Origin: Alphaproteobacteria bacterium
Lineage (GTDB): Bacteria > Pseudomonadota > Alphaproteobacteria > Micropepsales > Micropepsaceae
Length of the DNA stretch: 64,000 nucleotides
Direction: 5' to 3'
NCBI GenBank assembly: GCA_016124635.1
Contig: WGNJ01000002.1
Span: 62,001 to 126,000 of the forward strand
Shown here: positions 6,261 through 12,148 of the stretch, in pieces
Layout of the letters: each line of letters begins with the position of its first letter
How positions within the stretch are numbered: the stretch's first letter is position 1
Notes under the pieces: generated by a model
The model's input: the letters and a program-made list of their open reading frames with translations, nothing else
Database searches by the model: none
Told to the model about the DNA's origin: nothing
Made by a program: the position numbers and the translations under genes

Positions 6261-6352
6261 TTTCCTCCTCTCCAAGCCTCACCTGCTCCCGCGCGCGCTC
6301 GATTTCTTTCCTCCCCTGCACGCGGGATTTGCTCCCGCGCGTGCCCTATTTC
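6261..6352. repeat. Two tandem 46-bp repeat copies leading into a palindromic unit
   Basis: TTTCCTCC recurs at 6261, 6307 and 6353, giving a period of exactly 46. Each of the first two copies ends in a CTCCCGCGCG segment and a CTCGATTTC or CCCTATTTC tail. The third copy is the start of the larger palindromic unit. The first copy is more diverged (CTCTCCAAGC for CCCCTGCACG). This looks like local duplication or slippage of the end of the repeat family. Confidence 0.7.
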
Positions 6353-6573
6353 TTTCCTCCCCTGCACGCGGAACGCGTGCGGGCGGAGGTGTCGAGCCTG
6401 CAGAACACTGTCGGCAAAAAGCAGAGCTTCCGTGGCGAGACGGAGGGGGTGCGCTGAAGTGACGTGCGCATCGACGGGGGTAGTGCGGGCGCCGAGAGCC
6501 CTCTCCGTCTCGCCGCGCTCCTCGGCGATCCACCTCCGCCCGCACGCGCGTTCCGCGCGCGCAGGGGAGGAAA
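6353..6573. repeat. Palindromic repeat cluster A (unit R then inverted R')
   Basis: This is a pair of REP-like units filling the gap between leuD and a VOC gene. The forward unit spans 6353-6452: it opens TTTCCTCCCCTGCA, has a hairpin stem GCACGCG/CGCGTGC with loop GAA, then GGCGGAGGT, and ends GGCGAGACGGAGGGGGTGC. The inverted unit at about 6500-6573 is more decayed at its outer side but keeps CCACCTCCGCCCGCAC and GCAGGGGAGGAAA. The order (R then R') is opposite to clusters B and C. There is no coding function. Confidence 0.85.
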
Positions 6574-8173: not shown

Positions 8174-8284
8174 CTGCTCGCTCCCAATATCTTTCGGCTA
8201 TAGGACGCGAATGCGCGGCCGCTTGTCCAGACGTTGACAACCGTTTGTAAGCGTTGCTGAGCGTTTGTGAGCGTCACGTCAGCC

Positions 8285-8504
8285 GCACCCCCTCCGTCTC
8301 GCCGCTGACTCTCGAGCGTTCACGCCAGCTCACTGCCGGCTCGCCACCTCCGCCCGCACGCGCATCGCGCGCGCAGGGGAGGAAAGAGACTGTTGCGCTC
8401 GGCATCTTTCCTCCCCTGCATGCGGAACGCATGCGGGCGGAGGTGGCGAGCCTGCGGGGCATCAACGATAGGGCAGAGCGCTTGCGGCGAGACGGAGGGG
8501 GTGC
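8285..8504. repeat. Palindromic repeat cluster B (220 bp, R' then R)
   Basis: The inverted unit R' (8285-8385) begins GCACCCCCTCCGTCTCGCC and ends GCAGGGGAGGAAA. After about 21 bases, unit R (8407-8504) begins TTTCCTCCCCTGCATGCGG and ends GGCGAGACGGAGGGGGTGC. The hairpin in R has stem GCATGCG/CGCATGC around GAA. The whole is exactly 220 bp, as is cluster C, and the two differ at roughly 14 positions by eye. It lies in the 437-base gap between the serine hydrolase start and the DUF559 gene. Confidence 0.9.
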
Positions 8505-8610
8505 CGTTGAAGCACCGCGCGGTAACCGCTTGCGACCGGGCGGCGCAACGACACACGCTGTTACAAGCCGATGCACGCCGGCGTCCCTTTTCGCCGACAC
8601 AATCCTACGC

Positions 8611-8982
8611 ATGTCGGCACGCGAGCGAGAGGCAAACACAATCCAATTGGCGCGGCGCCTGCGACGTTCGATGACCGATGCGGAAGTCATCTTGTGGTCT
8701 CATCTGCGCCGCGATCAGTTTCGCCGGCTGCGCTTTCGGCGTCAGCATCCGATCGGCCCTTACGTCGCCGATTTCGTATGCACCAAACGCAAGTTCGTGA
8801 TCGAGGTCGACGGGGAGACCCATCACACGCCCGAGCAGCTGCTCCACGACATGCGCCGGCGCGCCTATCTTGAGGACAGAGGCTGGCGCGAAATGCGTGT
8901 CACCAATCAAGATGTCTATGACGATCTCGACGGCGTGCTCGAGACGATCTGGCGCGAGACGCGCGATACCGGACATATCTAG
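8611..8982 (+). CDS. DUF559 endonuclease-domain protein
   Basis: This is a protein of 123 residues of the DUF559 family, a small Vsr-/PD-(D/E)XK-like nuclease fold. LRRSMTDAEVILWSHLR at the N-terminus, then FRRQHPIGPYVADFVC (putative active-site Asp) and KFVIEVDGETHH (ExD-type acidic pair followed by His) are the signature, and RAYLEDRGWREMRVTNQDV closes the domain. The ATG at 8611 is chosen because the open frame upstream runs through repeat DNA; no strong ribosome site precedes it. The gene lies between two near-identical palindromic repeats. The role of the family is not established as far as I know; nicking or cutting DNA is plausible. Confidence 0.88.
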   Translation: MSAREREANTIQLARRLRRSMTDAEVILWSHLRRDQFRRLRFRRQHPIGPYVADFVCTKRKFVIEVDGETHHTPEQLLHDMRRRAYLEDRGWREMRVTNQDVYDDLDGVLETIWRETRDTGHI

Positions 8983-8999
8983 CGCGCATCACGTCTGCG

Positions 9000-9219
9000 G
9001 CACCCCCTCCGTCTCGCCGCTGACTCTCGAGCGTTCGCTTCAGCTCACGGCCGGCTCGCCACCTCCGCCCGCACGCGCATCGCGCGCGCAGGGGAGGAAA
9101 GAGACTGCTGCGCTCTGCACTTTTCCTCCCCTGCATGCGGAACGCATGCGGGCGGAGGTGGCGAGCCTGCGGAGCATCGACGATAGGGCAGAGCGATGAT
9201 GGCGAGACGGAGGGGGTGC
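9000..9219. repeat. Palindromic repeat cluster C (220 bp, R' then R)
   Basis: R' spans 9000-9100 and R spans 9122-9219, in the same order and with the same total length as cluster B. It keeps GCACCCCCTCCGTCTCGCC at the left end, the hairpin stem GCATGCG/CGCATGC, and GGCGAGACGGAGGGGGTGC at the right end. It begins 17 bases after the DUF559 stop and ends 44 bases before the leuC stop. Confidence 0.9.
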
Positions 9220-11886: not shown

Positions 11887-12126
11887 TTTCCTCCCCTGCA
11901 CGCCGTGAGGCGTGCGGGCGGAGGTGCCGAGCCCGCAGCGTGTTGAATATTGGCTTCAGTGTATGTGGCGAGGCGGAGGGGGTGCGCTGGAGCGTTTGCC
12001 GGTGACGATCGACGCGCGGCGCGCCCACCCCCTCCGGCTCGCCGCTAGCTCTCTGCACTCACGTCGAGCCTCTGCAAGCTCGCCACCTCCACCCGCAAAT
12101 TCGCGCCGCGAATTCGCAGGGGAGGA
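11887..12126. repeat. Palindromic repeat cluster D (R then R'), between convergent genes
   Basis: This fills most of the 382-base gap between the GNAT gene and rplS, which converge. R (11887-11985) has TTTCCTCCCCTGCA, stem GCACGCC/GGCGTGC with loop GTGA, GGCGGAGGT, and the end GGCGGAGGGGGTGC. R' (about 12024-12126) has CACCCCCTCCGGCTCGCC and, read on the other strand, a ten-pair stem GCGAATTCGC/GCGAATTTGC. The stems differ from clusters A-C in sequence yet remain paired. Being between two 3' ends, it may also act as a bidirectional transcription stop. Confidence 0.85.
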
Positions 12127-12148
12127 ACGTTCAAATGCAAGCTGTGAG

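Follow-up and report, generated by a model that had tools for sequence, protein, structure and literature searches.

A short gene of the little-studied DUF559 family lies between two near-identical repeats in the window, by which we mean the whole 64,000-nucleotide stretch of alphaproteobacterial DNA analysed here (contig WGNJ01000002.1, positions 62,001 to 126,000). The arrangement raises the question of whether the nuclease encoded by this gene spreads the repeats around it. An earlier note on this DNA had likened the locus to the repetitive extragenic palindromic (REP) sequences and their REP-associated tyrosine transposases (RAYTs). As far as comparative genomics can establish, DUF559 genes and this repeat class belong together. 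The arrangement recurs around DUF559 genes in many bacteria, and the nuclease is therefore a good candidate for an enzyme behind the spread of some small repeats common in bacterial genomes.

A DUF559 gene framed by paired repeat units

The two repeats, 8285-8504 and 9000-9219, are direct copies with exactly 14 differences over 220 positions, as the earlier note had estimated by eye; a longer direct match (8271-8504 with 8986-9219) has 17 differences over 234 positions. The outer ends of the pair, also described before, are mutually inverted: GCACCCCCTCC stands at 8285 and GGAGGGGGTGC ends at 9219. The repeats are real, but the description of each as one 220-bp palindrome gives way to that of two units of about 100 nucleotides in inverted orientation, each a hairpin followed by a G-rich tail. 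Both inner units aim their G-rich tails at the gene, which we write u→DUF559←u, the arrow pointing to the tail. As had been noted, leuC and leuD are oriented opposite to the DUF559 gene. The features of the locus are as follows.

8611..8982, + strand: gene for a DUF559 (PF04480) PD-(D/E)XK/Vsr-like nuclease of 123 residues (Pfam E = 3.3e-33; 13 invariant residues)
8407..8503, + strand: inner upstream unit (u→), hairpin from 8407, G-rich tail to 8503, facing the gene
9001..9099, - strand: inner downstream unit (←u), tail from 9001, hairpin to 9099, tail facing the gene
8286..8384, - strand: outer upstream unit, back to back with 8407-8503; the pair makes up the first 220-bp copy
9122..9218, + strand: outer downstream unit, back to back with 9001-9099; the pair makes up the second 220-bp copy
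6353..6573: gene-less doublet, u→ at 6353-6451, spacer, ←u at about 6498-6572; tails inward
11887..12127: gene-less doublet, u→ at 11887-11984, spacer, ←u at 12026-12127; tails inward
6299..6345, + strand: degenerate partial unit with the hairpin start motif at 6307 (by eye)

The two gene-less doublets, already placed by the earlier note (the second now runs to about 12127), have some 45 nucleotides between u→ and ←u. Window units start with TTCCTCCCCTGC and end with GGCGAG.CGGAGGGGG; the base of the hairpin is invariant, and the apical stem is variable and largely still complementary. Single-strand folding recovered the first hairpin in all six window units tested, and the best-supported fold is one hairpin of about 17 bp in each. 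Folding lent no support to a second hairpin, and the second stem is degenerate. A spacer of about 50 nucleotides precedes the tail, where GGAGGGG mirrors GGGGAGG (by eye; the window locus lay outside the family-wide mirror test described below).

In the window's own genome, BLAST gave 59 matches to the repeat, including overlapping matches on both strands, and the hairpin pattern had 15 exact matches, its reversed control none; together these results exclude a chance origin. Rfam returned only plant microRNA models below their gathering scores, which we took as hairpin artefacts. The genome holds three DUF559 genes; a second locus (L001) carries another unit type with copies on both sides, and the third (L002) carries a third type on one side. 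Because u→gene←u is what recurs, the core element is probably this arrangement, at about 8407-9099, and the 935-bp span put forward earlier was rejected as the element.

Units flank DUF559 genes in a fixed orientation

We assembled a first sample of 60 loci from the window's family (better-scoring places, away from contig ends) and a further 74 from named genomes belonging to several phyla (the top 80 of 560 confirmed places, minus 6 cut by contig ends). One locus (L134) duplicates another (L118) and was dropped, leaving 133, although both still contribute to the 487 control genes and to the mirror test. A structural scan looked for a hairpin with a pyrimidine arm followed by a G-rich tail. 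Other open reading frames or positions of the same loci served as controls, together with the 30 best-scoring Vsr loci, whose gene ends are approximate.

A unit lay within 150 nucleotides, on either side, of 113 of the 133 DUF559 genes compared with 23 of the 487 other genes. Units on both sides within this distance were found for 70 of 133 versus 0 of 487, and the canonical u→gene←u for 62 of 133 versus 0 of 487. The tail of the nearest unit faced the gene in 168 of 195 cases, and unit density fell from 3.18 per kb within 400 nucleotides of DUF559 to 0.063 per kb beyond 800. Comparison of each 5′ flank with its own 3′ flank gave the same picture: matches of at least 35 bits occurred at 38 of 60 family loci (3 of 228 control positions) and at 47 of the 74 loci of several phyla (2 of 250 controls). 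Outside the alphaproteobacteria, 21 of 36 loci had such a match, in records titled Gastranaerophilales, Melainabacteria, Dehalococcoidales, Desulfuromonadales, Ignavibacteriae, Bacteroidetes and Acetothermia.

With the method fixed at this point, we applied it to a second sample of 40 loci, one per genome, from the better-scoring part of the phylum matches. Units lay within 150 nucleotides at 37 of 40 DUF559 loci versus 0 of 30 Vsr loci; two of the 40 (L290 and L281) share DNA with earlier loci and both have units, and 35 of 38 remain without them. Flank-to-flank matches were found at 19 of 40 DUF559 loci and 1 of 30 Vsr loci. The earlier note had proposed asking whether most DUF559 genes have a repeat nearby, and had named DUF559 genes without repeats as a refuting result; in both samples the reverse holds. 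Over much of the bacterial diversity sampled, DUF559 genes are flanked by units whose orientation is constant. As a correction to the note, the repeat is one of a very widespread class.

The scan found no unit at three second-sample loci (L295, L301 and L299), the last of which has a flank match of 134 bits. An AT-rich hairpin motif, AATCTCCCC-TA(A/G)-CCCCTCTTTGCTAAAGAGGGGGATT, was seen by eye 3′ of DUF559 at L301 and L263; it falls outside the design of the scan and is likely a further unit type that the scan misses. Among the Vsr loci, the flanks of L246 (genome G188) match each other at 482 bits, probably as a larger duplication or an insertion element.

A mirror rule for the unit tail

Across 214 distinct asymmetric units, the tail fitted a mirror of the hairpin's purine arm better in 111 cases and a direct copy better in 19, with 84 ties; perfect fits numbered 143 for the mirror versus 55 for the direct copy. 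The direct copy was rejected as the tail rule on the count of 19 versus 111. In mirror tails, A is often swapped for T. Judged by sequence, the mirror rule is that of a fold-back purine triplex and is shared by the PIT/TM motifs of Escherichia coli (PMC4666352); the strand of a unit could fold either as a hairpin or as such a triplex. Alphaproteobacterial units often carry a second hairpin between purine arm and tail. A unit therefore tends to comprise a pyrimidine/purine hairpin and then, directly or past a spacer and often a second hairpin, a G-rich mirror-like tail.

Unit type and repeat number follow the enzyme

Distances between units correlated with distances between DUF559 proteins (Mantel r of 0.41 for 49 family loci and 0.27 for 61 others; 0 of 2,000 permutations reached the observed value in each). 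In genomes with several DUF559 genes, we asked whether a unit lies closer to that of the nearest relative in another genome or to that of its best same-genome paralogue: the foreign relative's was closer in 27 of 30 comparisons, farther in 2 and tied in 1. Unit type follows DUF559 relatedness.

Repeat number was assessed with a generic repeat pattern and a reversed-pattern control; the pattern misses the TTCCC and AT-rich types. We called a DUF559 gene strong at E ≤ 1e-20, a cut-off set after weak, repeat-less matches had been noticed in the window's family. The 96 genomes of that family held 2,533 pattern matches versus 138 for the reversed pattern, and repeats correlated with strong DUF559 genes (rho 0.67; medians with and without them, 26 versus 0). 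In 348 genomes of the phylum (7,314 matches versus 450 reversed), at least 10 repeats were found in 79 of 99 genomes with a strong DUF559 gene versus 14 of 249 without; when any match at E ≤ 0.001 was counted as DUF559, the figures were 82 of 135 versus 11 of 213. Within the 16 families having both states, the genomes with DUF559 had the higher repeat number in 15, the lower in 0 and an equal number in 1. These genomes, like the Escherichia coli strains below, are related to one another, so that p-values overstate independence and the within-family contrast is the fairest measure. Repeat number follows DUF559 presence, as the earlier note had proposed to check.

The DUF559 protein

The 123-residue protein was described from the start as a DUF559 nuclease with intact acidic residues, and it keeps D54, E65 and D67. 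With H71, these are among 13 residues that never vary across a family alignment of 25 sequences, and it retains all 13. Pfam matched DUF559 and MTES_1575 only; at E ≤ 0.001 it gave no match to PF03852 (Vsr), and Transposase_17, the Y1 HuH tyrosine transposase family, was not among the matches. The TIGR00632 vsr model matched weakly (E = 0.00076; 19.8 bits against a cut-off of 97.85). Among solved structures, the profile matched 3hrl (an endonuclease-like DUF559 protein, E = 8.6e-37) and 3r3p (a mobile intron protein, E = 0.0013), which we take to be I-Bth0305I of the EDxHD group. Membership of a known anti-phage defence system found no support, the PADLOC matches being weak and partial (E = 0.0026 for the window protein against DpdF; E = 9e-5 for the best match among four proteins). 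YcjD has been predicted as a Vsr-related PD-(D/E)XK nuclease (PMC1189080), and PMC12907096 reports that VsrA of Caulobacter crescentus (CCNA_02930), which has a DUF559 domain, causes an SOS response when the methyltransferase ScmA is missing.

DUF559 reading frames often extend into the downstream unit (for example at L083, L092 and L099), giving repeat-encoded C-termini rich in Pro, Ser and Gly. Eighteen genomes of the window's family (G070-G077 and G082 among them) have a weak, single-copy DUF559-like match (E of about 1e-7 to 1e-16) and few or no repeats; these genes are probably a different, vertically kept subfamily.

Empty sites and neighbourhoods

Seven of the window's 10 congeners have a high-similarity leuC orthologue. 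The earlier note had suggested looking for empty sites here, and neither DUF559 nor a unit was found within about 1.5 kb of leuC in any of these seven loci. The gap between leuC and the hydrolase gene is four nucleotides in one congener (G091), and a small open reading frame lies between them in another (G093). Since all seven loci are without gene and unit, the site is either empty in these relatives or was emptied there. Flanking copies in strains that never carried the gene, which the note had listed as a refuting result, were thus not seen at these loci. Flanking DNA was shared with the closest DUF559 relative from another genome at only 10 of 60 loci, a figure that stands without a synteny baseline for ordinary genes.

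Two sets of loci (L083/L129/L087 and L102/L128/L120/L094) are homologous neighbourhoods in different genomes that hold different DUF559 types, each with units of a different kind. Independent insertions, replacement or hot spots would each account for them.

E. coli ycjD and triplex motifs

E. coli K-12 carries an annotated DUF559 gene, ycjD, with a BoxC or triplex motif (TM) about 165 nucleotides past its 3′ end (L214:4205-4241). This motif has a TTA linker, and what seems to be a decayed unit lies at the very end of the gene (by eye). A query of motif plus ycjD was at least 80% covered in 3,364 of 5,426 complete genomes. In an even spread of 60 records, behind which stand few independent lineages, motif places numbered 13-29 (median 20) in the 37 records with ycjD versus 1-16 (median 6) in the 23 without. 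At phnP-yjdP, strains K-12, 7_14_50A and 144 carry a motif doublet; in CNR65D6 part of it is deleted, and SCU-301, 04-00955 and ST131 have little or none of it.

The ycjD/BoxC segment (L214) and the eefRABCD operon (L230 and L231) share one place between fabI and sapF, and the motif may have taken part in their exchange. PMC12817139 places ycjD in phylogroups A, B1 and C and the eef operon at the same position in others, and reads this as loss of eef.

A proposed mechanism and its alternatives

We consider it likely, with a probability of roughly 0.7, that the DUF559 nuclease is the dedicated enzyme that spreads these repeats, in a mobile element that resembles REP/RAYT but relies on an unrelated nuclease. 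This ranks as the likeliest mechanism because of the analogy with RAYTs and because the gene itself is framed. The window locus would then be a small mobile element, u→DUF559←u, whose nuclease would recognise the folded single-strand form of its own unit and cut beside it. Cutting would let the gene-bearing element and the gene-less doublets, u→←u, be copied or moved to new intergenic sites. Host replication or repair would probably assist, because the 123-residue protein comprises a nuclease domain only. DUF559 would thereby do for these units what RAYT transposases do for GTAG REPs.

Several observations weigh against this proposal. The earlier note had counted abundant repeats in genomes without DUF559 as a finding that would speak against it; such genomes are uncommon yet real. 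They comprise the 14 of 249 lacking a strong DUF559 gene, three of which have a weak match, and DUF559 was not found in family genomes G066, G055, G006 and G002, which hold 75, 58, 25 and 20 repeats. Conversely, five genomes with a strong DUF559 gene have fewer than 3 pattern matches, and at about half of the DUF559 genes the unit on one side went undetected. Whole window units fold no better than shuffled sequences (z of -0.6 to -2.0). The empty leuC sites could be losses, and the phnP-yjdP contrast between filled and empty sites, which has no clean junction, could reflect deletion. Neither the window site nor E. coli phnP-yjdP showed a target-site duplication, though the junctions are not clean. 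PMC12907096 reads Caulobacter VsrA as a mismatch-repair nuclease. The association is an observation, from which we infer mobilisation; binding, cutting and movement are predictions.

Some of the same evidence would suit a caretaker nuclease: the repeats would spread by other means and stall replication, and DUF559 would cut or resolve their folded forms for the host and stay nearby. Type-matching and the copy-number association would also be expected of a nuclease that acts on the repeats in this way, the Vsr-like fold fits, and Holder et al. (PMC4666352) tie triplex motifs to instability. Such a caretaker would leave unexplained the two-sided framing in one orientation (62 of 133 versus 0 of 487), the mostly different neighbourhoods and the two to several types per genome, and we regard it as unlikely. 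A role in host mismatch repair, with DUF559 a Vsr-like enzyme linked to cytosine methylation and no part for the repeats, would accord with the SOS response attributed to VsrA in C. crescentus without ScmA (PMC12907096) and with the weak TIGR00632 match of the window protein (E = 0.00076). We judge it distinctly improbable, given that true Vsr genes are without such repeats (0 of 30) and that type-matching and copy number would have to be accidents.

Still less probable is that DUF559 is a passenger, one of the small genes carried in at recombination hot spots where repeats make breakpoints, and inactive on the repeats themselves. Different DUF559 types do occur in homologous neighbourhoods (the two sets of loci above), and ycjD and the eef operon replace each other at one E. 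coli site (PMC12817139, as above), yet other genes of the same loci are never framed on both sides (0 of 487) and type-matching would be unexpected. Least probable of all, and in our view scarcely credible, is a transcriptional role, in which the units would be terminators or attenuators of the DUF559 gene: stable hairpin units do lie near the start and the end of the gene, and several frames of DUF559 continue into the downstream unit, but the same units are scattered as gene-less copies and the window hairpins have no following T run (by eye).

Beyond the spread of its own units, DUF559 may mark out an ancient class of prokaryotic mobile element in its own right, distinct from transposons, introns and RAYTs, with ends that fold on themselves as hairpin or triplex. 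Its gene-less offspring would include the BoxC/PIT/TM motifs of E. coli, the CGTC REPs of alphaproteobacteria and the GGGAGAGGG-NNN-GGGTGAGGG repeats found in many bacteria; we give this broader proposal even odds. If it holds, one small nuclease family would account for several unexplained repeat classes. CGTC REPs and BoxC/PIT/TM motifs have long been described without a known mobilising enzyme (PMC3733652 and PMC4666352, in the portions available), and DUF559 is a concrete, testable candidate that is present in model organisms, including E. coli K-12 as ycjD. A widespread domain of unknown function would gain a function, and the Caulobacter DNA damage attributed to VsrA could be off-target cutting by an element's enzyme. 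No link between DUF559 and such repeats was found in the literature searched, which left out bioRxiv, most subscription journals and supplements.

Comparison with known systems

Like insertion sequences and miniature inverted-repeat elements (MITEs), the loci have a single gene between terminal inverted units, along with inverted derivatives that lack the gene. Unlike them, they have no DDE or HuH transposase, a target duplication was not found, and their ends are folding repeats and not plain terminal repeats. Vsr and the Vsr-like homing endonucleases share the nuclease superfamily, but there is no intron or intein at the window locus, and units framed none of the 30 Vsr genes.

The BoxC/PIT/TM motifs resemble the units in having a hairpin with a third, mirror-like G-rich arm and a TTA or CCG linker; motif loops are 1-6 nucleotides (3-nucleotide linker), whereas window units have a long spacer. 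Holder et al. (2015), in the available sections of PMC4666352, report no transposase or integrase remnants near the E. coli triplex motif, and DUF559 is not named in those sections.

The CGTC REPs of alphaproteobacteria "apparently lack a dedicated transposase" according to Di Nocera et al. (2013; PMC3733652), which also describes their alphaproteobacterial abundance and head-to-head dimers, both shared with the repeats here. By eye, the L001 unit reads CGTC-hairpin-TCCACC with a 3-nucleotide loop, and the window units contain CCGTCTCGCC...CTCGCCACC, with CCGTC and CCACC both present. Measured against the CGTC design (CGTC, a stem of 8-9 bp, a loop of 3-5 nucleotides and a CCA tail), the L001 copy fits by eye and the window type differs in its degenerate second stem; here the CGTC-like unit forms one section of a longer unit that accompanies DUF559 genes.

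The remaining parallel is the one first proposed. PMC2817692 describes RAYT genes as invariably lying between two inverted REPs, and the analogy holds in layout, orientation, type-matching and copy number: the gene is framed by two inverted palindromes, gene-less doublets are many, and repeat type tracks enzyme phylogeny. The enzyme differs, being a PD-(D/E)XK/Vsr-like nuclease (PF04480) and not a Y1 HuH transposase (Transposase_17), and so do the repeats, which have a G-rich mirror tail in place of a GTAG head (none at the ends of eight aligned window units, by eye on the alignment). If our proposal is right, the two systems are convergent, and a plain PD-(D/E)XK nuclease, with no transposase, runs a population of palindromes.
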